Part shown: piece after piece, positions 12,828 through 26,123 of the stretch
How positions within the stretch are numbered: the stretch's first letter is position 1
How the letters are laid out: each line of letters starts with the position of its first letter
DNA from: an uncultured Flavobacteriales bacterium
GTDB taxonomy: Bacteria > Bacteroidota > Bacteroidia > Flavobacteriales_G > Salibacteraceae
Direction of reading: 5' to 3'
DNA: 35,280 nt
Assembly: GCA_937899835.1 (NCBI GenBank)
Contig: CALCCE010000047.1
Location: 1-35,280 of the forward strand
The notes under the pieces: generated by a model
The model's database searches: none
What the model was told of the DNA's origin: nothing
Seen by the model: the letters and a program-made list of their open reading frames with translations, nothing else
Made by a program: the position numbers and the translations under genes

Positions 12828-15026
12828 ATGCTCAGGCAATTTCCTTTTTTCCAACAAGCCGATTCTATGGATTGCGGACCCACTTGCCTACGAATGGTGG
12901 CAAAGTACCATGGCCGCGCCTATTCCCTACAGTTTTTAAGAGAAAAATGCTACATCGATCGGGCAGGGGTAAGCTTGAAAGGCATTAGTGAGGCAGCAGA
13001 ATACATTGGGCTTCGAACTTTGGCGGTAAAGCTCTCTTTAGAGCCTGAAGGAAGAAATATCGAAACCCCAGCCTTAAAAAAAGCGCCTCTGCCTTGTATC
13101 GTGCATTGGAATCAAAACCACTTCGTGGTGGTTTATAAAATTGAAAAGTCGAAGGTATTTATCGCCGATCCGGCCAGCGGTAAAATAGGACTTTCCTACG
13201 CGGAGTTTAATAGGTCATATGTTAGCGAATCGGGCAGAGGGATCGCCCTCTTAGTAGAAAAAACGCCAGGGTTTAACCAAACCGAACTGGATGAAGAAGC
13301 ACCTCGTGGTCTTCAGTTTATTCTGCAGTACCTATACCCACACCGCAAATTGATGTGGCAATTGGTATTGGGACTCCTGTTGGGAACCCTGTTTCAACTC
13401 ATTTTTCCCTTTCTCACCCAAAGTATTGTTGACATCGGTATCGACACGCAAAACCTGGGTTTCATCTATCTCATTCTCGGTGGACAGTTGATGATATTTC
13501 TGGGGCAAACAGCGGTACGGTTTATTCAACGTTGGATTTTGCTGCACATTAGCATTCGTATCAGTGTCAACCTTATAGCCGATTTTCTGGTCAAATTAAT
13601 GAAGTTGCCGCTCGGCTTTTTTGATGCTAAAAACACGGGCGATTTGCTTCAGCGAATCGGAGACCACAACCGAATTGAGAGTTTTTTGACACACTCGAGC
13701 CTCACGGCCTTGTTTTCGGTCTTCAATCTGCTGGTTTTTGGACTCGTTTTGGCCTATTACTCAGGCCCGATTTTCCTCATTTTTCTGGGTTCGAGCTTCA
13801 TTTATGTTTTGTGGATATTTCTTTTCCTCAAAAGAAGAAAAGAAGTGGACTACCGTGCATTTCAGCAAATGGCTGACAACCAAGATGCCTTGATTGAAAT
13901 CATTCAAGGGATGCCGGAAATTAAACTACAGGGCAGCCAACTGAAGCGAAGGTGGAAATGGACGGTCATTCAGGCAAAGTTGTTTCGCACGCAATTAAAA
14001 GCGCTTTCTATCAGTCAATATCAGGATGCCGGGGCGCTCTCCATCAGCCAGCTAAAAGATATTCTAATCACGTTTATGGCGGCAAAGTTGGTCCTCGAAG
14101 GGGAAATTACCTTGGGCATGATGCTGGCCATTCAATTTATCATTGGTCAGTTAAACAGCCCTTTGCAGCAGCTGATCCAGTTCATTCGTGACGTGCAAGA
14201 TGCTTCCATTAGTTTGGAGCGCTTGTCGGAAATCCACGTGAGTTCGAATGAGGAAAATGAGTATGAGGATAAAATCAAGGCATTGCCCGAAGGAGACATT
14301 GTGTTGGAAGACCTCTCTTTTTCCTACACGCCCATTGCCGATCAGGTGCTCAAGAACGTGTCATTTACCATACCCAAAGGCAAAACCACCGCTATTGTTG
14401 GAACAAGTGGTAGTGGCAAAACTACCTTGGTCAAGTTGTTGCTGGGTTTCTACAAGCCAACACAAGGTAAAATAGTAGTTGGCAATACGAACCTTAATTC
14501 CATCTACCAAAAGGCCTGGCGGGCCAACTGTGGCGTGGTGATGCAAGAAGGTTTTATTTTTTCTGATACCATTGGCAACAACATTTCTGAGTGTGACGAA
14601 AAAACTGATTTTTACCGGGTAAAGGAGGCCATTGAAGTAGCCAATATTGAAGCGTTTATTCAATCGCTCCCCTTGGGTATCCACACGATGATTGGAGCGA
14701 AAGGCAATGGGCTAAGTCAAGGGCAAAAACAACGTTTGTTAATTGCCAGGGCTGTCTATAAAAATCCGGACTTTTTGTTTTTCGATGAGGCTACCAATGC
14801 GCTTGATGCCAACAATGAAAAGGTCATCATGCATCAGCTCAATACTTTTTTGCAAGAAAAAACGGCGGTAGTAGTGGCCCATCGTTTGAGCACCGTCAGA
14901 AGTGCTGATCAAATTATTGTATTAGAGGGAGGTGAAGTGGTGGAACAAGGAACACACAGCGACCTGATAGACTTGAAAGGTAGCTACTTCACCTTGGTTC
15001 AAAACCAACTTGAACTGGGCAATTAA
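12828..15026 (+). CDS. C39 peptidase-containing ABC exporter (PCAT type)
   Basis: A 732-residue bacteriocin-type exporter with three parts. Residues 1-130 are a C39 cysteine peptidase with all catalytic residues: C16 in DCGPTCL, H98 in QNHFVVV, D114 in IADPASGK. It cuts leader peptides after a double glycine. Residues about 160-450 are the membrane domain with about six helices. Residues about 490-732 are the ATPase: Walker A GTSGSGKTT (525-533), signature LSQGQ (629-633), Walker B ending D653-E654, and switch H685. It should cleave and secrete the locus's GG-leader precursors through the inner membrane, working with the HlyD-type adaptor 15 bases downstream. The ATG at 12828 places the peptidase motif at the usual distance from the N-terminus. 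Confidence 0.95.
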   Translation: MLRQFPFFQQADSMDCGPTCLRMVAKYHGRAYSLQFLREKCYIDRAGVSLKGISEAAEYIGLRTLAVKLSLEPEGRNIETPALKKAPLPCIVHWNQNHFVVVYKIEKSKVFIADPASGKIGLSYAEFNRSYVSESGRGIALLVEKTPGFNQTELDEEAPRGLQFILQYLYPHRKLMWQLVLGLLLGTLFQLIFPFLTQSIVDIGIDTQNLGFIYLILGGQLMIFLGQTAVRFIQRWILLHISIRISVNLIADFLVKLMKLPLGFFDAKNTGDLLQRIGDHNRIESFLTHSSLTALFSVFNLLVFGLVLAYYSGPIFLIFLGSSFIYVLWIFLFLKRRKEVDYRAFQQMADNQDALIEIIQGMPEIKLQGSQLKRRWKWTVIQAKLFRTQLKALSISQYQDAGALSISQLKDILITFMAAKLVLEGEITLGMMLAIQFIIGQLNSPLQQLIQFIRDVQDASISLERLSEIHVSSNEENEYEDKIKALPEGDIVLEDLSFSYTPIADQVLKNVSFTIPKGKTTAIVGTSGSGKTTLVKLLLGFYKPTQGKIVVGNTNLNSIYQKAWRANCGVVMQEGFIFSDTIGNNISECDEKTDFYRVKEAIEVANIEAFIQSLPLGIHTMIGAKGNGLSQGQKQRLLIARAVYKNPDFLFFDEATNALDANNEKVIMHQLNTFLQEKTAVVVAHRLSTVRSADQIIVLEGGEVVEQGTHSDLIDLKGSYFTLVQNQLELGN

Positions 15027-15041
15027 AAGAGGAGTAGCAGG

Positions 15042-16349
15042 ATGCCAGAAACCATGGAAGAAATCGCAGCCAGTCAGCAAACCGCTGACATCATTGAGGT
15101 ACCTCCTGGTTGGTTAATCCACAGTGGAATTGGCACCATTGCCGCAGTAATGGTGATGCTATTGGGGTTAACCTTATTTATTCGCTACCCGGACAAGGTA
15201 TTGGCAACTGGGATGATTACCACCGAAATGGAGCCTGTGGAGTTGTTTACTGAAGTGGATGGAAGGATAGAGCGGCTGTTTGTGAAAGATAAGGCAACAG
15301 TAGAAAGTGGGGCTCCCATTTTATTTCTTGCCAATGATGCGAGTTGGCGCGATGTGGAAAAGTTGAAACAACAATTGGCCTTACTTAAAACAAGTTTGGG
15401 CACCACCAAGGATTTTCCGGTTTTACCCGAATTGACTCAACTGGGACTCATGCAGCGCGATTATGTTCAATTGAAACAGCAGTGTGAAGCCTTGGCAATT
15501 TTGCTCACACGATCAGAAGTTGTTGCCTTGCAAAAAAGCACACTAAACAAGGAATTGGCGGGGATTAACCGGCTCAACGAATCATTGGTAAAAGAAAAGG
15601 CACTTTTTGAGGAGGAACTGGCACTTAAGAAGAGGGATTTCCATCGACACCTAAGCTTGGAAGAAGTGGGGGCAGTAAGCAAGTTGGATTATGAAAACCG
15701 TCAATTGACTTACCTCCAGTTTCAACGACAATTTGAAGGAATGAGCAGCGGTATCATCAACAATCAAATTCGGATGGAACAACTCCGAATGGAATCGATA
15801 CGCTTAGAAACGGAGTATGCACAAAATATTCAAGCCGCAATTGTAGGCATTGGACAAACCATAGAATTGTTGCATGCGGGGTTACTGGTTTGGGAGCAAC
15901 AATACTTCTTAAAAGCAGAAACCGCCGGTACAATTAGCCTTGCACGGAGTATTTCGGAAAATGCCTTTCTCCGAAAAGGAGATTTGGCCGCTTATGTTGT
16001 GCCCCTTGAAAAGGGGAGGCTTCTCGCCAGGATAAAGCTTCCAGTGCCGAGCAGTGGTAAAATTGAAATCGGACAAAGGCTGATTCTAAAAGTTCAGGAA
16101 TATCCCTATAAAGAGTTTGGAATGGTGCAAACAAAGGTGGCGGATATTGCCGCCATTGCGGTGCAAGCAGAAGATGGTGAAGCTTACTATGACGTTCGGG
16201 GAGAGCTTCCCGATAAACTGATTACCACCTACGGAAAACAGATTGCGTACAAACCCAACATGCAAGTGTCAGCAGAAATTATTTCTGAAGACCGAAGCTT
16301 GTTTCAACGCATTTTTAGTCAGTTCCTCAACCTTATAAAAAACGATTGA
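15042..16349 (+). CDS. HlyD-family secretion adaptor
   Basis: A 435-residue membrane-fusion protein, partner of the C39 exporter immediately upstream. A short cytoplasmic N-terminus precedes one membrane helix (IAAVMVMLLGLTLFIRYP, about residues 28-50). Next come half of a lipoyl/barrel-sandwich domain (MEPVELFTEVDGRIERLFVK), a long coiled-coil hairpin (about 100-260, rich in Leu, Glu and Gln), the returning sandwich half (FLKAETAGTISLARSISENA), and a beta-barrel with the KVQEYPYKEFGMV segment common in bacteriocin adaptors. It bridges the exporter to an outer-membrane channel that is not in this window (a TolC-like protein would be needed). A purine-rich gaggag lies before the ATG, unusual here and resembling a Shine-Dalgarno. 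Confidence 0.93.
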   Translation: MPETMEEIAASQQTADIIEVPPGWLIHSGIGTIAAVMVMLLGLTLFIRYPDKVLATGMITTEMEPVELFTEVDGRIERLFVKDKATVESGAPILFLANDASWRDVEKLKQQLALLKTSLGTTKDFPVLPELTQLGLMQRDYVQLKQQCEALAILLTRSEVVALQKSTLNKELAGINRLNESLVKEKALFEEELALKKRDFHRHLSLEEVGAVSKLDYENRQLTYLQFQRQFEGMSSGIINNQIRMEQLRMESIRLETEYAQNIQAAIVGIGQTIELLHAGLLVWEQQYFLKAETAGTISLARSISENAFLRKGDLAAYVVPLEKGRLLARIKLPVPSSGKIEIGQRLILKVQEYPYKEFGMVQTKVADIAAIAVQAEDGEAYYDVRGELPDKLITTYGKQIAYKPNMQVSAEIISEDRSLFQRIFSQFLNLIKND

Positions 16350-16350
16350 T

Positions 16351-16671
16351 ATGAATCTTATAGAGAAGATAAGACTGATAGAACGGGTGGATGGGCTTAT
16401 TTCCAGAGAAAGTACCGGGTCTCCTGCAGCATTGGCACAGCGCCTCCATATTTCAGAGCGTAATACCTATAACCTAATCAAGGTGATGAAAGAAATGGGA
16501 GCTTCCATTTATTTTTGTAAAACCAGAAATAGTTATTGTTACAAAGAAGAAGGTCAATTTAAATTCGGTTTTATGGTCAAAGAAAGCTCCTGTACGGGAG
16601 GTGAGTGTAATTTTTTTAAGCCTTTGCAACACCTGCAAATTACTTGCAGTACCCCGAGTTATATTTGTTAG
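16351..16671 (+). CDS. Small HTH-domain protein of peptide-maturation loci
   Basis: A 106-residue protein that begins one base after the adaptor stop codon and so is translationally linked. Residues 1-60 form a helix-turn-helix (HTH_11-like): GLISRESTGSPAALAQRLHI then SERNTYNLIKVMKEMGA, followed by a wing (IYFCKTRNSYCY). The C-terminal ~30 residues are Cys-rich (SSCTGGECNFF, ITCSTPSYIC), six or more cysteines in the whole protein. Proteins of this build commonly stand next to GG-leader precursor genes in Bacteroidota and are assumed, not shown, to regulate them. A promoter and a 12-bp palindrome lie at and just past its stop codon, immediately before precursor A1, and would be a natural target. 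Confidence 0.8.
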   Translation: MNLIEKIRLIERVDGLISRESTGSPAALAQRLHISERNTYNLIKVMKEMGASIYFCKTRNSYCYKEEGQFKFGFMVKESSCTGGECNFFKPLQHLQITCSTPSYIC

Positions 16672-16683
16672 GAAATCGATTTC
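16660..16683 (+). promoter_or_regulatory. Candidate internal promoter with operator palindrome for precursor A1
   Basis: TATATTTG (16660-16667) matches the Bacteroidota -7 box perfectly and overlaps the end of the HTH gene. The perfect 12-bp palindrome GAAATCGATTTC (16672-16683) begins 5 bases later, where transcription would start. No -33 TTG is found at the standard distance, so the promoter may require activation. Such an arrangement would allow precursor A1 to be expressed apart from the transporter. Confidence 0.45.
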
Positions 16684-16735
16684 AGAGGGAAGCTCCAAGC
16701 CCTTAAACGAGGAGATAATTAACAAATGACTAACA

Positions 16736-16951
16736 ATGGAAAATTTAAAGAAATTCAATCCTGAAAAAATTGATACTGACCAATTGAATTCAGTACTTGG
16801 AGGTGGTACAACACGTACTACTTATACCACAGGTAGCGGAAAATCTGGTAAAGACATCAACCAAGATGGAGTAACCACTAACATTGGAGCGAATACATCT
16901 TCGGCAACGGATTCTCCTTTGAGCGGACCAGGTAAAAAGCGGTACCCATAA
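16736..16951 (+). CDS. GG-leader precursor peptide A1
   Basis: A 71-residue probable RiPP precursor. The leader (about residues 1-24) LKKFNPEKIDTDQLNSVLGG is the typical Bacteroidota double-glycine leader ('L.kl....ls..el..v.GG'), suited to the C39 exporter of the locus. The core after the glycines is about 47 residues, very rich in Thr (10) and Ser (6), starting TTRTTYTTGS, with three Asp, no Glu and no Cys, and it ends in KKRYP. Thr/Ser hydroxyls with Asp carboxylates, or Lys amines, could be joined by an ATP-grasp ligase. It stands between the HTH gene and ATP-grasp G1, separated from the latter by a strong hairpin. It does not resemble precursors A2 and A3 in the core. Confidence 0.8.
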   Translation: MENLKKFNPEKIDTDQLNSVLGGGTTRTTYTTGSGKSGKDINQDGVTTNIGANTSSATDSPLSGPGKKRYP

Positions 16952-16976
16952 TGGAGTAGCTAAGCTTCAAAAATTC

Positions 16977-17010
16977 AAGTATCTGCTGGGTATGTGCTCA
17001 GCAGATACTT
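16977..17010 (+). terminator. Hairpin between precursor A1 and its maturase (attenuator)
   Basis: A perfect 12-bp stem (16977-16988, aagtatctgctg, with 16999-17010) and a 10-nt loop, lying 26 bases after the A1 stop and 13 bases before the ATP-grasp start. Hairpins at this place in RiPP operons usually let most transcripts stop after the precursor, so peptide is made in excess over enzyme, or protect the short mRNA end. Only a short T-rich stretch follows, consistent with partial termination. Confidence 0.6.
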
Positions 17011-17022
17011 TATGGTTCCACT

Positions 17023-17985
17023 ATGAAGAAACGAATAATCGTCGATTCCTATTCCAACGAGTTTTCGACAGATCAAATCATGAAATACCTGGTTTACTTG
17101 GATGCTGATGCCGAGCTTACCAGAATCAACGCATTTGAATTGGACGATTTTGGTATCAGAGTAGAAAATGCCGGAGTTGATATTAAAATTGGAGCAGGCG
17201 AAAAGAAGCTAGAATTAGAAGAATTGGCCTTTTACTTTTATCGAAGAGGCACCTTGTCGATTTCAGGCGCACGTCTTAATAAAAGTGCCTATGCTCACGG
17301 TGCTGACAATTTTTTTAGAAATGAACTCAAAGTGCTCAAGGAGTACGTTTACTCCGAACTTGAAAATAGAAATTCTTATGGCTCGTGGCATGCCGATGTG
17401 AATGCCAACAAGCTTATTCAATTGAAACAGGCGGTGGTGGTTGGAATGAATATTCCGTCTACGTTGATCACCACTTCGAAGGAAGAGTTGTTGAAATTTC
17501 AGGAGGACTTCTGTCAAGTTATCATAAAACCTATTGGCGACCACATTGATATTCCAATTGAAGCGGGATGTCTGGAAGCCTCTGGTACTCAACAATTGTC
17601 AAAACAGGATATTCTGTCTTTCGAAGACCATTTCTTTCCTGCGTTACTGCAGGAGAAAGTAGAAAAGAGCTTTGAGGTTCGATCCTACTATTTCAATCAA
17701 AGCATTCATTCGATGGCAATTTTTTCGCAAGCAAGCGAAGCCACCAAACTGGATTTTAGAAATTACGATGAGGGCGAGAAGAATAGAAATGTACCCTATC
17801 AATTGTCGGAAGAGATGGAAACTAAGGTGCATGCTTTAATGAAAAGGCTTCGCTTAGATACGGGATCACTTGATTTCATGTTCACGTCAAACAACGAAAT
17901 CTATTTTTTAGAAGTCAATCCAACCGGGCAGTTTGGGTGGGTTTCCGAGAACTGTAATTACCAATTTGAAAAGAGATACGCCTAA
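17023..17985 (+). CDS. gwsG: Grasp-with-spasm system ATP-grasp peptide maturase (module 1)
   Basis: A 320-residue ATP-grasp ligase that should activate side-chain carboxylates of a precursor peptide as acyl-phosphates and join them to Ser/Thr hydroxyls or Lys amines. Visible elements: N-terminal domain (FSTDQIMKYLVYLDAD), the ATP-binding Lys in VIIKPIGDH (K169), LLQEKVEKSFEVRSYYF (hinge and Arg), D284 in GSLDFMF, and metal ligands E297 and N299 in FLEVNPTGQFGWV. The order and size match the 'grasp-with-spasm' ATP-grasp family. The C-terminus stops soon after NCNYQFEKRYA, about a dozen residues shorter than the second copy. It is followed after 8 bases by small protein X1 and then the SPASM gene. 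Its substrate is probably A1, by position. Confidence 0.9.
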   Translation: MKKRIIVDSYSNEFSTDQIMKYLVYLDADAELTRINAFELDDFGIRVENAGVDIKIGAGEKKLELEELAFYFYRRGTLSISGARLNKSAYAHGADNFFRNELKVLKEYVYSELENRNSYGSWHADVNANKLIQLKQAVVVGMNIPSTLITTSKEELLKFQEDFCQVIIKPIGDHIDIPIEAGCLEASGTQQLSKQDILSFEDHFFPALLQEKVEKSFEVRSYYFNQSIHSMAIFSQASEATKLDFRNYDEGEKNRNVPYQLSEEMETKVHALMKRLRLDTGSLDFMFTSNNEIYFLEVNPTGQFGWVSENCNYQFEKRYA

Positions 17986-17993
17986 CACGTATT

Positions 17994-18164
17994 ATGGATG
18001 AGATAGACAAAAACCAATTGCGGATGCTCACGCAGGAGCCGGTTTTTTGCCGGCACAAGTATAGAAAGTACAACGATGTCGTTGAAAAAAAAATCCCGAT
18101 TCGAAAATTGAAAACAGTGCTTTCCAAGCCTCAATCATTTTATAAACTGATCTCAAGAAACTAG
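17994..18164 (+). CDS. Small protein X1 between grasp and SPASM genes
   Basis: A 56-residue ORF packed tightly between the ATP-grasp gene (8-base gap) and the SPASM gene (2-base gap), which argues that it is translated. The sequence is basic, begins MDEIDKNQLRMLTQEPVFC and ends SKPQSFYKLISRN; the middle carries HKYRKYNDVV and KKIPIRKLK. No signal peptide or GG motif. I recognise no family. A counterpart of 58 residues (X2) sits at the same place in module 2, and the two share only a faint pattern (a His, then about 13 residues later IR.LK and a Ser). Alternatively, the upstream region could be a frameshifted extension of the ATP-grasp gene: the frame is open back to 17970 and reads KEIRLTRIMDE. 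Confidence 0.5.
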   Translation: MDEIDKNQLRMLTQEPVFCRHKYRKYNDVVEKKIPIRKLKTVLSKPQSFYKLISRN

Positions 18165-18166
18165 GT

Positions 18167-19216
18167 ATGGCTGCCGCACGGTTTTTATCCATTTTTTCTT
18201 GCTGTAAAATAGTAAAAGGCATCACCCGGGGAGTTATCGTCGATGTGCAAAGGGAAGCTATTTATAGGGTTCCTTTGGATTTAATCGACTTTATGGAGCG
18301 ATTGAAAACCAAGCCCATAAAAATGGTATTGGATGAAATGTCGGGAGCAGACAAAGAAACCGCCACTGATTATGTGAATTATTTGTTGGAAAACGAGTTG
18401 GCGTTTTATGTGGACAATCCTCAGCCTTTCAAAGAAATTTCAACCGAATGGGATTATCCGAGCTACATCACCAATTGCATCCTTGACTTTAACGAAGACC
18501 ACCTCCATTTGTACGGTGGTGTGGCAAAAAGCCTCGATTTGTTGCTTTGCTATCATATGGATGTTCGATGCTTTGGTCAAGTCTCGTTGGCTGGGTTAAC
18601 CAGGCTGCTGCTTTTTTTTGAAGGTACCACCGTACAGAACATTTCAATAAAGCTAAGTGCAAAATGCTTTTCGGAAGTGGCGCAGCTGGAAGGTTGGGTA
18701 ACACATTTTGGTCGTGTTCGGTTAGTGGAGGTATTCGATGCTGAAGCCAACCATAAAGAGCGGAAAGGGATAAGTTTTCGTGTTGATGCCCTTCACACAC
18801 ATTCCTGTGGTAAAATTGGGATTCACCTAATGACACCCAACATCCAGCATTATAATGAAGCACTTCACCACAATTCTTGCTTAAACCGAAAGATTGGAAT
18901 TGATTCGAATGGCAACATCAAAAATTGCCCTGCTATGCGGGAAAGTTACGGCAATATCCACAACGGCAAACTGGAGCAAGCGATTGAAAAACCAGGTTTT
19001 AAGAAATATTGGAACCTCAATAAAGACCGCATAAAGGGTTGCAAAGATTGCGAATTTCGATACGTCTGTACGGATTGCAGAGCCTATGTAGAGCAACCAC
19101 AAGATCGGTTGAGTAAACCCTTAAAATGCGGTTATGACCCCATTGAGGGAAAATGGAGTGCCTGGAGTACCAATCCACTGAAGCAAAAGGCCATTCATTA
19201 TTACGGTATGGGTTAG
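18167..19216 (+). CDS. gwsS: Grasp-with-spasm system SPASM-domain maturase (module 1)
   Basis: A 349-residue protein whose C-terminal region is a complete SPASM domain with all seven canonical cysteines: C238, C254, C292, C295, C301, C304 and C321 (pattern CX15C, then CX2CX5CX2C, then C). In radical SAM/SPASM enzymes these hold two auxiliary 4Fe-4S clusters. The N-terminal part has no CX3CX2C motif for the radical SAM cluster, so it is not expected to do SAM chemistry itself. The N-terminus (RFLSIFSCCKIVKGITRGVI) suits the family named 'SPASM domain peptide maturase, grasp-with-spasm system'. The role is unproven; it may guide the peptide to the ATP-grasp partner or work as an iron-sulfur scaffold. 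It begins 2 bases after X1. Confidence 0.88.
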   Translation: MAAARFLSIFSCCKIVKGITRGVIVDVQREAIYRVPLDLIDFMERLKTKPIKMVLDEMSGADKETATDYVNYLLENELAFYVDNPQPFKEISTEWDYPSYITNCILDFNEDHLHLYGGVAKSLDLLLCYHMDVRCFGQVSLAGLTRLLLFFEGTTVQNISIKLSAKCFSEVAQLEGWVTHFGRVRLVEVFDAEANHKERKGISFRVDALHTHSCGKIGIHLMTPNIQHYNEALHHNSCLNRKIGIDSNGNIKNCPAMRESYGNIHNGKLEQAIEKPGFKKYWNLNKDRIKGCKDCEFRYVCTDCRAYVEQPQDRLSKPLKCGYDPIEGKWSAWSTNPLKQKAIHYYGMG

Positions 19217-19345
19217 CATTACCCGAGACCAAAGTCGTGCTCTTTTCATGCACTGCAAAATACTTGCGGTGATAACCCTTATTTTCAAGGGACCAGCCTG
19301 CTGTTGGTGCCGCAGGTAAATACCAGATGATTCAAATATTTACGG

Positions 19346-19549
19346 ATGAAAAAAATCAATAAAGATAGTTTGCTTGAAGAATTTCTAAAGGAAGCATTTT
19401 GCATAAAGCAAGGTGCAACCATTATTGGCGGCCAAAGTAGCGAAAGCAGTTTCGATCGCTGTACAGAAGGAGATGAGGGTTGTTGTGACGCGGACCCTGA
19501 ATTACCCATGCCCCGACTGGGAACCATTAAAAACGATCCGGATGGCTAA
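19346..19549 (+). CDS. Grasp-with-spasm precursor peptide A2
   Basis: A 67-residue precursor. The leader INKDSLLEEFLKEAF and IKQGATIIGG ends in a double glycine for the C39 exporter. The core of about 39 residues contains SSFDRCTEGDEGCCDADP and a LGTIKNDPDG tail: rich in Asp/Glu acceptors with Thr, Ser and three Cys. Precursor A3, 47 bases downstream, shares the leader and the DRCT..DEGCCD.DP core, so this block is under constraint and probably holds the modified residues. The Thr plus nearby acids suit ester links made by an ATP-grasp ligase (graspetide-like). A 129-base gap separates it from gwsS of module 1 and holds no clear promoter. Confidence 0.85.
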   Translation: MKKINKDSLLEEFLKEAFCIKQGATIIGGQSSESSFDRCTEGDEGCCDADPELPMPRLGTIKNDPDG

Positions 19550-19596
19550 TCCGATAAAATCCAGTAAATCATTAACCAATCATAAACTACTTTAAA

Positions 19597-19803
19597 ATGA
19601 ATAAGGACAGTTTGCTCGATGAATTTCAACAAGAAGCCTTCTCCATGGAGATGGGCGCAAAAATTATTGGTGGACACCAATGTTCAGGTACTAACGACCG
19701 ATGCACCGATGACGATGAAGGTTGTTGCGATACCGATCCACCACCCAGCGAAGAAGTGCCAATAACCGAGTTGGGTACCATTTCAAGTGACGGGAGCGTA
19801 TAA
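19597..19803 (+). CDS. Grasp-with-spasm precursor peptide A3
   Basis: A 68-residue paralogue of A2. The leader NKDSLLDEFQQEAF and MGAKIIGG again ends in GG. The core carries TNDRCTDDDEGCCDTDP, a Pro/Glu-rich insert (PPSEEVP) three residues longer than in A2, and the conserved LGTI near the end. Conserved against A2: Thr, the acidic run, three Cys and LGTI; variable: the four to six residues right after GG. Conservation of acids and Thr across two copies points to crosslinked positions; the variable parts may set specificity. It is followed after 52 bases by the module 2 ATP-grasp gene. Confidence 0.85.
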   Translation: MNKDSLLDEFQQEAFSMEMGAKIIGGHQCSGTNDRCTDDDEGCCDTDPPPSEEVPITELGTISSDGSV

Positions 19804-19855
19804 GAACCTGCTTCCTTCAACCCGGTAGTAGGAATTGCTGTGCTACTCAACGGCT

Positions 19856-20869
19856 ATGGTATTTATTTTTTCGAGGAAAGAAGACTTAGCTACCAACGCT
19901 GTGATAAGGTGGCTTGAGCACCTAAACGTCAACTACCAACGCATCAATTCCGAAGAAGACCAGGAGGCGATACAGTTGCTGTATGAGCATCTGGTTGGGT
20001 ATTCCGTTTGGAAAGGCGCTCCTGCAAAAAGGCAGGAGCACTTTTCCTTGTGGTTCAGAAGGCCCAATCCAGGTTTGTTGGCAGGGTTAGCGGGGAAGGA
20101 AATCGACACCAAGAGCATCCGATTTCCTACCTTTAATAGTCATTCTCGACTATTTGAATCCCTTAAAAACAACTACCGCCATTATTTAAGAAATTATTTT
20201 CACCATCAACTGAATTACTGCAATCTTGGGTCATACCATAAAACGACGGTAAATAAATTAGAAGTTCTGGAAACGGCAGTTCAGGTAGGGTTGAAAATAC
20301 CTGAAACGGTGGTGACCAATGACATGGAGGTATTGAAACCATTTTTCGAAAAACACCAACGAGATATTATCTGTAAAACCTTGTTTGAGGCCATTCATCC
20401 GCTAGGAGTGCGGGAAGAAGGATTTACGATCCGTTGCATGACTGAAAGAATAGAGGACCTGGCCGTATTGCCGGAGGTGTTTTTTCCGAGTCTTTTCCAG
20501 GAAAACATTCAAAAACGCTTTGAAATACGAGTGTTTTTCATCCGTGACAAATGCTATGCTGCAGCCATGTTTACCCAACAACACGCCGATACCATTACCG
20601 ATTTTAGAAACCAGAACGATCAAGAGATCAGGACCCGGGTTGTTCCTTATCAATTGGACGAAGAGATGGAACAAAAGCTTAGGGATTTAATGCGGGAAAT
20701 AGGTATAAACAGTGGCTCAATTGATTTGATCAAAGGCAAGGATGATAACTATCATTTTCTGGAAGTCAACCCGGTGGGGATGTATGGTTTTATTTCTACT
20801 CCTTGCAACTACGACCTGGATGAAGTAATTGCCAGAGAACTGATCGCTATTGGCTATGAAAAAAATTGA
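19856..20869 (+). CDS. gwsG: Grasp-with-spasm system ATP-grasp peptide maturase (module 2)
   Basis: A 337-residue ATP-grasp ligase, paralogue of the module 1 copy. The ATP-binding Lys is K174 in DIICKTLFE; LFQENIQKRFEIRVFFI and GSIDLIKG follow; metal ligands are E303 and N305 in FLEVNPVGMYGFI. The C-terminus runs on through CNYDLDEVIARELIAIGYE, the normal ending lacking in module 1. A TTG seven codons upstream is possible, but the ATG at 19856 (MVFIFSRKED) matches the family start. Position suggests A2 and A3 as substrates. It overlaps X2 by 14 bases. Confidence 0.9.
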   Translation: MVFIFSRKEDLATNAVIRWLEHLNVNYQRINSEEDQEAIQLLYEHLVGYSVWKGAPAKRQEHFSLWFRRPNPGLLAGLAGKEIDTKSIRFPTFNSHSRLFESLKNNYRHYLRNYFHHQLNYCNLGSYHKTTVNKLEVLETAVQVGLKIPETVVTNDMEVLKPFFEKHQRDIICKTLFEAIHPLGVREEGFTIRCMTERIEDLAVLPEVFFPSLFQENIQKRFEIRVFFIRDKCYAAAMFTQQHADTITDFRNQNDQEIRTRVVPYQLDEEMEQKLRDLMREIGINSGSIDLIKGKDDNYHFLEVNPVGMYGFISTPCNYDLDEVIARELIAIGYEKN

Positions 20870-21032
20870 AATTATTCCGAGTCCTCTTATTCCAGCCAAT
20901 TATCACCTAAACAAGGTGTTCTTAAATAGAGAACGCCCCAAAAATATTCGGGCACTGAAAATTGAATTTTCTACGCGTTTGAATGGTAATTTTAGGGTAG
21001 GGGAGCCTACGCGGAAAATATCCAACTTATGA
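20856..21032 (+). CDS. Small protein X2 between grasp and SPASM genes
   Basis: A 58-residue ORF that overlaps the ATP-grasp gene by 14 bases and the SPASM gene by 4 bases (ATGA), the geometry of translational coupling. It begins MKKIEIIPSPLIPANYH and ends PTRKISNL, is basic (several Arg/Lys), and has no signal peptide, Cys or GG. No known family is recognised. Its position equals that of X1 in module 1; similarity between them is weak, limited to a His, a spaced IR.LK and a Ser. It may be a leader-binding or bridging subunit for the two maturases, but this is only inference from place and size. Confidence 0.55.
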   Translation: MKKIEIIPSPLIPANYHLNKVFLNRERPKNIRALKIEFSTRLNGNFRVGEPTRKISNL

Positions 21033-22057
21033 ATGGGGAGTATTTCGCGCTGTATGCCAATGTTTTTTTGGTAGAAGGAGCCGTTGAAAACATTCTGGTA
21101 GACACCCACAAGCATCGCTACATTACCATTAGGAAAACCATATCTGCGCTGATTAAGAATGATCTTAAAAAAGCAACGATGGGTGAAGTCCTAAAAAAAT
21201 ACCCAAATTGGGCAGAAGGGGTGAAGGCCTACACTGGATATTTAATTGAAGAGGACTTTGCTTTCCTGACCAAGGAGCCACATAAGTTTCCCGAAATGGA
21301 TTTGGCATATAAACGGCCATACGACTTGGACACCGCAATTGTTGTGGTCAATTTCGGCTCAACAATTGATTATCCTTCTTTAATGGAGGCTGTCCTAAAC
21401 GTGAACATTCAGAATTTACTCCTCATTTTCAAATCGGTTCCTGAGCTGTGTTTTGAGGCCATCGATGCGCTAATCAGCGGTTTCAAGCAGAGTTCGTTGG
21501 TTGCCATACAGCTTTATTTTGAACGCCCCGAACTCAATGGGGAAGCCTTGGAAAAGCTGACCTCTGATCTTCGGGTAAGTGTGAAGGAGTTTGGCTCCCC
21601 TGCCACTGCTATCCTTGAAGATGATCCGGATCGAGACGGTTTAGTGGGGCGGCCAACCATCCGAAAGACCTCCCAAGTACTCCAACTTGAAGCATTGCAG
21701 GAGTATGGTCCTGAACACATGAACTTGTCCCTTTCTCATTTTATTGAAGCTCAAAAGCACGTCACAGGGTTGAACGCAAAGTTTTGCATTGATGCCAATG
21801 GCAATATCAAAAATGAGCTGCGGCATCCTACCATTTTTGGAAATGTATCCAGTGACTCAATTGTGGAAGTAGTAGCAAGTGCCAATTTTCAAACCAAATG
21901 GCAGGTTGCCAACGACTTGGTAGAGAAGTGCAAAGATTGCCAGTTTCGCTATTCTTGTTACAGCAACTCTGATCTAAAAAAGGTCGGTAATCAATGGTAT
22001 AAAGTAGAAGCGTGTACGTTCAATCCCTACAAAAACCAGTGGGAGCGGGTGGAATAG
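21029..22057 (+). CDS. gwsS: Degenerate SPASM-domain maturase (module 2)
   Basis: A 342-residue paralogue of the module 1 SPASM protein. The N-terminus YFALYANVFLVEGAVENILV aligns with the partner, and the C-terminus keeps CIDANGNIKN and CKDCQFRYSC. Of the seven SPASM cysteines four remain: C301, C304, C310 and C329. The others are replaced: G247 for the first, E263 for the second, N313 for the sixth. These three are expected to hold auxiliary cluster I, and the four kept to hold cluster II. No radical SAM CX3CX2C motif is present. So a protein with a single iron-sulfur cluster is predicted. A nearby C253 might partly compensate. It is the last gene of the locus; convergent with a reductase gene 34 bases on. 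Confidence 0.85.
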   Translation: MNGEYFALYANVFLVEGAVENILVDTHKHRYITIRKTISALIKNDLKKATMGEVLKKYPNWAEGVKAYTGYLIEEDFAFLTKEPHKFPEMDLAYKRPYDLDTAIVVVNFGSTIDYPSLMEAVLNVNIQNLLLIFKSVPELCFEAIDALISGFKQSSLVAIQLYFERPELNGEALEKLTSDLRVSVKEFGSPATAILEDDPDRDGLVGRPTIRKTSQVLQLEALQEYGPEHMNLSLSHFIEAQKHVTGLNAKFCIDANGNIKNELRHPTIFGNVSSDSIVEVVASANFQTKWQVANDLVEKCKDCQFRYSCYSNSDLKKVGNQWYKVEACTFNPYKNQWERVE

Positions 22058-24266: not shown

Positions 24267-26123
24267 CTATTCCACAATAAATCGATGTTGCTCCATGCGC
24301 CCATTTTCCATTTCAACGGTGATGAAATACAAACCGGGGGTAAGGTCAGAGATGTCGTATACGTTTCGGGTATTGCTACTGGCGGATACCTGACGTACTT
24401 GCTTGCCATCAATCGAGATGATCGAGATGGTTTGTGGCACCGATTCGGAGGTCTCTAAGGTGATGGTTTCCCTGGCAGGGTTCGGGTAAACCTTGGAATC
24501 AAACGCAACAGTTGCCGGATTTTCGTTGGTCACTTCGATCCGATTGGATTTCGTGCAATCATTACTGTATCGGAAGATATGGTAGTGCCAGTTCTCAATG
24601 TTGTTCGGATCGTTGAAGCCACCGTTGGTAGAAAGGCCAAAACTGAACATGTAGAAATTGCCCACTTGCAATTGGTTGTTGGACAATGCCACCACATCCA
24701 CAGTAATGGGTCCGCCAAGAGGACCACTAATGACCCCAGAGGCGCCAAGGTAGTTCCCAGGCGTGCAAATAGGATTAACCAAGTAGTTTTGGATACCGTA
24801 ATAGTATTCATCTTCACATCCGGAAGAACTCAATTGAACCCTCACTTCATCGCAGTAAACTGGCAAGGTGCCACAAGAAGTCGTCCAGGGTATAAAGCTA
24901 TTGCCCCAGTCGGCATCTGGCATAGAGCCTAATACCATGCAACATGTGGCTTCAAGCGCCTCGATGTCAATAAAGATGGTTTGGCTAAAGGTGCATTCTA
25001 CGCCGTTGGGAAGGGTGTATTTTAGCTCAACGGTATAATATCCGGTAGCCGTTACCGGTTTAGAGGTGCTTACGTCTCCAAACCAACTCAACAACAGCGG
25101 AGGTCCTCCTGAGCCATCGTTGTACTCCCAATTCGCCGAAACAACGGTTACATCATTGGGCAGTGTATTCACGCTGACTACCTGGTTGAAACAATCGTAT
25201 TCCAATTCCAGGTCGTCAAGACATTCACAGGTTTCTAACTTAAAGTACAATTGTTCGGTCTCCCAACAGGGGCCAGTAGCCAGGGTGAGGCGGTAGATCT
25301 GGCCTGCCAAAAGGTTGGCAGGGCTCGCCAGCGCGTTGTTCAAAAGGTCAATGGAACCAGGCGCTTGTCCGGTTGCGGTAGGCCAGCCGCTGTATACAGC
25401 GGGGCCAACGGTGAGTGGGTTGTTGTTGGTAACCGGAGCTACACCAATGAAGTACCCGCATTCATTCTGAGAGGCAGAGCCATCCACAAGAGCCGAAGTG
25501 GAACAAAATTTAGCTACTTCTAACGGTCCCCAATTGGTTTGAATCACTTCATAATCGAAGGCATTAACGGGTTCAACCGCGGCAGTATTGCCGCAACCGT
25601 CATAACGGATTTCCTTGATGCCTACCTTGGAATTGCCAGATCGCCTGAGGATAAAACGAATTTCGGATACGGCTCCATTCCAATTGATCCAGCCGTTTTG
25701 GTTGATAGTGCCCACCGTTACTGTATTGGTCATGGGGTCAAGGGCGAACGGAGGCGTGGCAGAAACCGGAAAAAAGCCAGGGGCTACGAATTGGATAGAT
25801 TCTCCAACATCCAAATCCGTAATGTAAATCCCCAAATTGTTTACCGGATTACTGAACACGATGTTGTAAACGGAAGCGAGGGAGGTGGCACTAATTGGCA
25901 TCGACACGCCGGGGATCGTACTCGAAGGAGGGTAAAAGCCATCTCCGTTCAGGGAGGAGATCGTGTAGGTGGTGTTTGTACATAAGCCATCAATGGGTGG
26001 ACTGGTTACACCCGAGAATACACTCCCAGGCACCCAATCAATGGGATCAATCACTACTTGCTGGGCGTAGATTGGAACTAAAAGACCAACCAATGCAAGC
26101 CATGTGCTCATTATTTTCTTCAT
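24267..26123 (-). CDS. T9SS type A sorting domain-containing secreted protein
   Basis: A 618-residue exported protein. Signal peptide (STWLALVGLLVPIYAQQ) at the start; C-terminal ~80 residues form a type A sorting domain: KVYPNPARETITLET, ISIDGKQV and the closing DLTPGLYFITVEMENG, which direct export by the type IX system and surface attachment or release. The body is rich in Thr, Asn, Gly and Cys (pairs such as CECLDDLELEYDC and CCMVLG), and reads as beta-sandwich domains of adhesin type; no catalytic motif. Two hairpins follow its stop. It is divergent from the hybrid two-component regulator. The ligand is unknown. Confidence 0.85.
   Translation of the reverse strand: MKKIMSTWLALVGLLVPIYAQQVVIDPIDWVPGSVFSGVTSPPIDGLCTNTTYTISSLNGDGFYPPSSTIPGVSMPISATSLASVYNIVFSNPVNNLGIYITDLDVGESIQFVAPGFFPVSATPPFALDPMTNTVTVGTINQNGWINWNGAVSEIRFILRRSGNSKVGIKEIRYDGCGNTAAVEPVNAFDYEVIQTNWGPLEVAKFCSTSALVDGSASQNECGYFIGVAPVTNNNPLTVGPAVYSGWPTATGQAPGSIDLLNNALASPANLLAGQIYRLTLATGPCWETEQLYFKLETCECLDDLELEYDCFNQVVSVNTLPNDVTVVSANWEYNDGSGGPPLLLSWFGDVSTSKPVTATGYYTVELKYTLPNGVECTFSQTIFIDIEALEATCCMVLGSMPDADWGNSFIPWTTSCGTLPVYCDEVRVQLSSSGCEDEYYYGIQNYLVNPICTPGNYLGASGVISGPLGGPITVDVVALSNNQLQVGNFYMFSFGLSTNGGFNDPNNIENWHYHIFRYSNDCTKSNRIEVTNENPATVAFDSKVYPNPARETITLETSESVPQTISIISIDGKQVRQVSASSNTRNVYDISDLTPGLYFITVEMENGRMEQHRFIVE

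Follow-up and report, generated by a model that had tools for sequence, protein, structure and literature searches.

Two grasp-with-spasm peptide cassettes lie side by side in an operon of an uncultured Flavobacteriales bacterium (assembly GCA_937899835.1, contig CALCCE010000047.1, positions 1–35,280 of the forward strand; this whole stretch of 35,280 nucleotides is called the window below). The reading we favour, with a probability of about two in three, is that they are autonomous cassettes of different subfamilies, gathered in one operon, that make two peptides and share one exporter, each with a catalytically dead SPASM protein (S) that binds the leader of its precursor. On this reading, each ATP-grasp ligase (G) would join side chains of its own precursor, with Ser, Thr or Lys as donors and Asp or Glu as acceptors and a change of -18 Da per link. 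The S protein, a presumed relative of the radical-SAM maturases without the SAM-cluster site, would hold the leader in an N-terminal RRE domain, and the rest of it, with one Fe-S cluster in module 2 and two in module 1 for stability, would keep peptide and ligase together. The small X protein may act as a helper, and the C39 exporter would cut after the GG of the leader and export both products.

The original prediction had counted twelve forward-strand genes at 12828–22057, with two complete grasp/X/SPASM sets, three GG-leader precursors, a C39 exporter, a HlyD adaptor and an HTH protein. The coordinates and count are exact in the list of open reading frames, and every component is present according to these frames, NCBIfam and Pfam, the HTH protein scoring below its cut-off (Table 1). 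The genes are closely spaced, and the frame is intact in all 12. Exporter, HlyD and HTH genes come first, then module 1 (precursor, ligase, small protein, SPASM) and, with no other gene between them, module 2 (two precursors, ligase, small protein, SPASM). The widest intergenic gap, 129 bases just before precursor 2 (19217–19345), contains no plus-strand terminator-like site; 16 terminator-like sites were found against 11.4 expected. G1 and G2 score above the grasp-with-spasm cut-off of TIGR04192, as S1 does for TIGR04193, and GG precursors adjoin the ligases as in that family, one before G1 and two before G2. S2 stays under the TIGR04193 cut-off with a match that covers nearly the whole model (E 1.4e-46), and is by its sequence a grasp-with-spasm SPASM relative outside the curated limit. 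Precursor 1 matches TIGR04149 weakly (15.0 bits, cut-off 25), and an NCBIfam scan at E 1 returned no family for precursors 2 and 3, X1, X2 or the HTH protein. No further TIGR04192 or TIGR04193 match was found elsewhere in the genome (assembly 98% complete, in 307 contigs).

That the modules belong to different subfamilies, independent of each other, is apparent from comparison of their proteins. G1 and G2 are 28.8% identical and S1 and S2 20.5%. With either ligase or either SPASM protein as the reference, the second copy in the window is outranked in similarity by most foreign homologues: it comes 32nd and 39th among 51 in the case of the ligases, and 45th and 37th among 46 in that of the SPASM proteins. 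Trees of both proteins, proposed as a check in the original prediction, place the modules in different subfamilies: G2 and S2 group with the ligases and SPASM proteins, respectively, of Aquimarina, Kordia and Marinifilum (support 98 in both cases), and in larger trees the nearest relative of module 2 is the locus L223 (support 100 for G2 and 96 for S2). L223 stands alone and comprises two precursors, ligase, X, SPASM and its own exporter and HlyD; its X protein aligns over the full length with X2 (no shuffle of 2000 scored as high). Against a profile built from 39 other X proteins, the scores of X1 and X2 were marginal (equalled by 4/1000 and 1/1000 shuffles). Module 1, together with the exporter and HTH genes, resembles L074, another lone locus, with exporter, HTH, two precursors, ligase, X and a SPASM protein of class A (defined below), in this order; the HTH homologue sits at the same place there (E 2e-15), and an HTH gene was found in 9 of the 78 mapped loci. 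The larger trees were built without L070, which is also omitted from the mapped-set cysteine counts below, and L235 is in neither of them. The modules occur apart in most loci examined, contrary to the possibility, raised with the original prediction, that they are never separate. A direct comparison is offered by L069 and L081, which are 89% identical over a class-B locus of 4.6 kb and 81% identical over a flank of 6.2 kb downstream; beside this locus, one of the pair carries about 4.5 kb with a class-A module and the other about 0.7 kb of other sequence. Whole modules are thus the units of gain or loss. Gene order within modules is not universal, since in L039 the nearest ligase follows the SPASM gene.

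Two explanations that would reduce the locus to a single product bear directly on these comparisons. A tandem duplication of one cassette, supplying more of the same product, would account for the gene order that the modules share; the low identities and separate tree positions speak strongly against it, and with the different leaders and cores they leave this explanation hardly credible. It could also be imagined that only one module is productive, the other being silent or in decay. G1 ends early and thereby lacks the last conserved Leu, S2 is under the curated cut-off, and SPASM fragments lie near full-length loci in L082, L205, L206 and L224, all of which would suit such a process, but the frames are open in all 12 genes and the columns conserved among 83 ligases are mostly kept in both modules, the remaining departures being one Trp to Phe replacement in G1 and two replacements of Met in G2. 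A decaying or silent module is improbable.

The precursors differ in the same sense as the enzymes, and by sequence precursor 1 and precursors 2 and 3 fall in separate leader classes. On a class-A leader profile precursor 1 was equalled by none of 1000 shuffles, precursors 2 and 3 by 275/1000 and 223/1000. On a profile of module-2 relatives the figures were 382/2000 for precursor 1 and 0/2000 for precursor 2, a result that became clear for precursors 2 and 3 only after the addition of L223, itself found through the trees; an earlier profile, from Aquimarina-type loci and L041 only, was too weak (24/1000 and 62/1000 for precursors 2 and 3). The two precursors of L223 share with precursors 2 and 3 the leader motif DSLL..F and the core motif TxxDxGxCDxD, both absent from precursor 1. 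The core motif turned up only in precursors, six in all, with a pair each in the window, L223 and L235 (all six reading frames of 2.08 Mb of sequence, with overlapping loci included and the second, overlapping copy of the L223 place excluded from the count). Invariant in all six, in the numbering of precursor 2, are D7, L9, L10, F13 and E16 of the leader and D37, T40, D43, G45, C47, D48 and D50 of the core. By analogy with graspetide chemistry (PMC13097080), the Thr would be the sole invariant hydroxyl donor of the module-2 core and the Asp residues candidate acceptors. Precursor 3 is 58–59% identical to precursor 2, and a search of the genome found no further copy of it. Elsewhere, the Aquimarina class-B loci L037, L038, L040 and L042 have one to five near-identical small precursors with no canonical GG and a common QYWCG.G.

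The original prediction had left two alternatives, two peptides through one export route or one peptide modified by both sets. The former is favoured: the two modules come from different subfamilies, most of the loci examined have one without the other, and each module goes with a leader class of its own. In the latter, both ligase/SPASM sets would share their precursors and modify them one after the other or at different places of a single core, as may happen with the two ligases of microviridin-type loci. All genes lie on the same strand with short gaps, and two ligases per locus are known: L083 and L084, of microviridin type, carry two in tandem with one GG precursor seen, and some microviridin-like loci have two ATP-grasp genes (PMC8939145). 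However, L083 and L084 lack a SPASM partner, each module in the window has its own leader class, and L223, the nearest relative of module 2, has no module 1. A single shared pathway is accordingly quite unlikely.

Grasp-with-spasm loci as such are already known. The further-reaching finding concerns the SPASM proteins: the partner comes in two classes, is without the radical-SAM site, and is predicted to bear an RRE domain. The presence of these proteins had been recognised in the original prediction, which missed all three features. The radical-SAM motif CX3CX2C is absent from the first 220 residues of all 99 distinct S proteins, S1 and S2 included, and from all 85 of the mapped set, which overlaps the 99. 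The positions of the auxiliary clusters, AuxI and AuxII, were matched by motif to the ligands of anSMEcpe (AuxI C255, C261, C276 and C330; AuxII C317, C320, C326 and C348; PMC5715301), and AhbD has the same CX2CX5CX2C spacing (PMC10452713). Among the 99, 75 proteins have four AuxI and four AuxII cysteines (class A), 22 have those of AuxII alone (class B) and two are without the C-terminal part; in the mapped set the numbers are 49, 35 and one other, although the ratio of the classes means little because the samples were partly drawn with S2 as query. S1 is of class A, with all eight positions present, and S2 of class B, with none of the four AuxI and all four AuxII cysteines. The AuxI cysteines are therefore present as a full set or not at all, a statement from which the S proteins of L080/L018 (0 AuxI, 0 AuxII) and L141 (2, 0) are set aside; their matches to the family model stop at positions 289 and 315 of 342. 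A single branch of the S trees separates class B from the rest, with support of 99 (47 rows), 99 (46 rows, AuxI columns blanked) and 86 (84 rows). The partner ligases reject class B as one clade (p-AU 0.0012, in two trees in which long branches are present). AuxI may have been lost once or several times.

S fragments and short frames of L043, L044, L079, L082, L205, L206, L224 and L235, and the N-terminal S pieces of L122 and L074, were not classed as separate proteins in the mapped set; the first SPASM protein of L122 is split over two overlapping frames. Four of the short frames (L082:11706-11852, L205:6085-6258, L206:7414-7599 and L224:6950-7207), of 49–86 residues, resemble the C-terminal SPASM part and lie near full-length loci; they are either remnants of further modules or tiny genes. 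The SPASM protein at L235:8096-8734 has 213 residues, seemingly an RRE-like N-terminal part and the SPASM cysteines with most of the barrel gone, and this locus may be decaying, since the adjoining ligase lies in two frames.

Structure prediction gave confident models (pLDDT 85.8 for S1 and 87.2 for S2), in which the S proteins are predicted to begin with a putative leader-binding RRE domain and to continue as a barrel. Residues 4–80 of the S2 model match the RRE domain 6jx3_B (Z 10.5, root-mean-square deviation 1.9 over 76 residues) and the N-terminus of the S1 model a leader-bound RRE (Z 10.2, deviation 2.1 over 77 residues), the likeness spanning residues 1–81. The arrangement expected of a PqqD-like RRE, strands followed by three helices, is seen in the predicted structure only. 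From about residue 98 onwards the models match radical-SAM folds (BtrN, CteB, SuiB, ChlB, anSME and TigE), and the best Foldseek E-values were 8.4e-5 for S2 and 1.9e-6 for S1. A sequence-profile search of solved structures returned six matches up to E 1, the best at E 0.026, and no SPASM protein among them.

By analogy with MirC of rosaritide, S may be a partner of the ATP-grasp ligase that binds the leader and is itself catalytically dead. In the rosaritide system the ligase MirB makes no product without MirC, the N-terminal domain of which weakly resembles an RRE (PMC13097080). What the two systems would have in common is a graspetide synthetase whose partner carries an RRE-like N-domain; beyond that domain, MirC continues as a SurA-like chaperone and S, as predicted, as a radical-SAM-like barrel with SPASM. 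The alternative is that S is a catalyst after all, its Fe-S clusters carrying out redox chemistry on the precursor, for example on a conserved Cys, in addition to leader binding. The AuxII cysteines are kept in 97 of the 99 S proteins, the module-2 precursors have an invariant Cys, and thioether formation is known from SPASM maturases of other families (PMC8939145), but CX3CX2C is wholly absent, AuxI is gone in class B, and the S proteins are about 100 residues shorter than the chains of TigE or SuiB. Catalysis by S therefore appears unlikely. It could be speculated, as a tentative extension of the scaffold role with the odds somewhat against it, that S is a dead radical-SAM protein serving as a leader-binding chaperone with purely structural Fe-S clusters, that the two classes and leaders mark non-interfering crosslinking pathways in one cell, with one operon and one exporter between them, and that the invariant Cys of TxxDxGxCDxD in module 2 may be a crosslink donor and so yield a natural side-chain thioester.

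The exporter keeps C16, H98 and D114, which we take to be the catalytic residues, in columns conserved in 32–33 of 33 exporters. Its tree takes no account of module class (10 changes against a shuffled mean of 10.5; for class B, 248 of 500 shuffles gave a number as low). Exporters of this kind thus serve modules of both classes, which supports, without proving, that export is shared. The same tree gives no ground for assigning the exporter to one module. The nearest relative of the window's exporter by path length is that of L074 with fewer rows and that of L225 with 33 rows. The further C39 matches of the genome lie at G000:C16 and G000:C205, two of them on one contig, and hint at other exported peptides.

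Several observations weigh against the reading of two autonomous pathways with leader-binding S proteins. With three further C39 peptidase matches in the genome, another exporter could take part. Promoter-like sites are not above chance (20 against 18.9 expected) and cannot show a single transcript, although the genes may well be transcribed as one. The leader of precursor 3 is equalled by 2 of 2000 shuffles on the module-2 profile, and such profiles indicate leader classes, not binding, so that pairing of each module with its own precursors is presumed. The whole-chain likeness of the S models to known structures is modest (query TM-score 0.26–0.42 in 12 rows with E ≤0.001). Finally, in PMC8939145 the SPASM protein is taken as a radical-SAM enzyme and thioether-type chemistry is expected.

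With regard to known systems, the locus shares with the grasp-with-spasm family (TIGR04192/TIGR04193; branch 5 of PMC8939145) the ligase, the small protein upstream of the SPASM protein, GG-leader precursors, a C39 exporter and HlyD; that branch comprises 190 loci, with an LPL protein encoded immediately before the SPASM enzyme. The present locus differs in that one operon with one exporter holds two cassettes whose SPASM proteins are of different class, that S2 is under the curated cut-off, and that precursors 2 and 3 match no family model. The predicted order of RRE, barrel and SPASM, and the matching folds, recall the RRE-bearing radical-SAM/SPASM maturases SuiB, CteB and TigE, but S is without CX3CX2C. 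The twitch domain likewise has a single auxiliary cluster site instead of two; it is the CX2CX5CX3C part that twitch lacks (PMC5715301), whereas class-B S proteins keep CX2CX5C and the last Cys (AuxII) and lose AuxI, which makes class B the mirror image of twitch. By our own identification, loci of the kind seen in the window are probably graspetide group 14 of PMC13097080. Among the open papers searched, the term grasp-with-spasm was not found, TIGR04193 and TIGR04192 appeared only in PMC8939145, and no characterised product of these Bacteroidota loci was found (most subscription papers lay outside the search); a term search of PMC10352776 found no mention of graspetide or ATP-grasp. If S is a leader-binding scaffold, dehydrations and not radical crosslinks become the chemistry to be expected, and S should be included in heterologous expression. 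As two leader-specific and possibly non-interfering cassettes with a shared exporter, the operon would allow leader specificity to be tested in a single background, and its S proteins, one with eight cluster cysteines and one with four, would offer a route to the role of auxiliary Fe-S clusters without radical chemistry.

The operon is real and uncommon. At E 0.001, TIGR04193 was matched in one of the 42 genomes of the window's order, the window's own; in 32/392 genomes of a phylum sample (12 over the cut-off), 41/395 of a class sample (27 over), 26/397 of the family f5 (17 over), 4/13 of the family f61 and 116/148 of the genus g17 (106 over). Two full-length matches within 20 kb occurred in the class sample only in the window's own genome, one genome of the f5 sample (G323) has two modules near each other, and in g17 there are at least three pairs within 20 kb among the matches listed. 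Some genomes of g17 (G129 and relatives) have up to six TIGR04193 matches. Two ligase/SPASM pairs are held by five of the 78 mapped loci, of class A with class B in the window and L069 and of A with A in L120, L121 and L122, a count that is no frequency because L069, L120, L121 and L122 were fetched in the knowledge of close matches.

Table 1. Genes of the double locus (positions in the window). NCBIfam cut-offs: TIGR04192, 230 bits; TIGR04193, 175 bits; TIGR04149, 25 bits.
Feature	Position	Strand	Basis
C39 peptidase-containing ABC exporter, 732 aa	12828..15026	+	Pfam PF03412 123 bits, PF00664, PF00005
HlyD-type membrane adaptor, 435 aa	15042..16349	+	PF13437 (HlyD_3) 35 bits; TIGR01843 99.8 bits, under cut-off 208.65
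Small HTH protein, 106 aa, possible regulator	16351..16671	+	PF08279 16.5 bits, under cut-off 25
Precursor 1, 71 aa, module 1	16736..16951	+	Leader ends GGG; fits class-A leader profile
ATP-grasp ligase G1, 320 aa, module 1	17023..17985	+	TIGR04192 236.8 bits
Small protein X1, 56 aa	17994..18164	+	Position of LPL family of PMC8939145; C-terminal FYK.ISR
SPASM protein S1, 349 aa, class A	18167..19216	+	TIGR04193 332.2 bits; AuxI 4 and AuxII 4 cysteines, without CX3CX2C
Precursor 2, 67 aa, module 2	19346..19549	+	Leader profile of module-2 relatives; motif TxxDxGxCDxD
Precursor 3, 68 aa, module 2	19597..19803	+	Leader profile of module-2 relatives; motif TxxDxGxCDxD
ATP-grasp ligase G2, 337 aa, module 2	19856..20869	+	TIGR04192 252.4 bits (computed from the residue after Met); first ATG used, longer TTG start at 19835
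Small protein X2, 58 aa from ATG, module 2	20856..21032	+	TTG start at 20850; aligns with X of L223
SPASM protein S2, 342 aa, class B	21029..22057	+	TIGR04193 159.5 bits, under cut-off; AuxII cysteines only, without CX3CX2C

The guanine-cytosine content is 0.40–0.45 over the locus and 0.38–0.50 in the flanks shown, with no clear sign of foreign origin. Downstream, at 24267–26123 of the window, a large reverse-strand protein has a C-terminus that by eye looks like what we assume to be a type IX secretion sorting domain.

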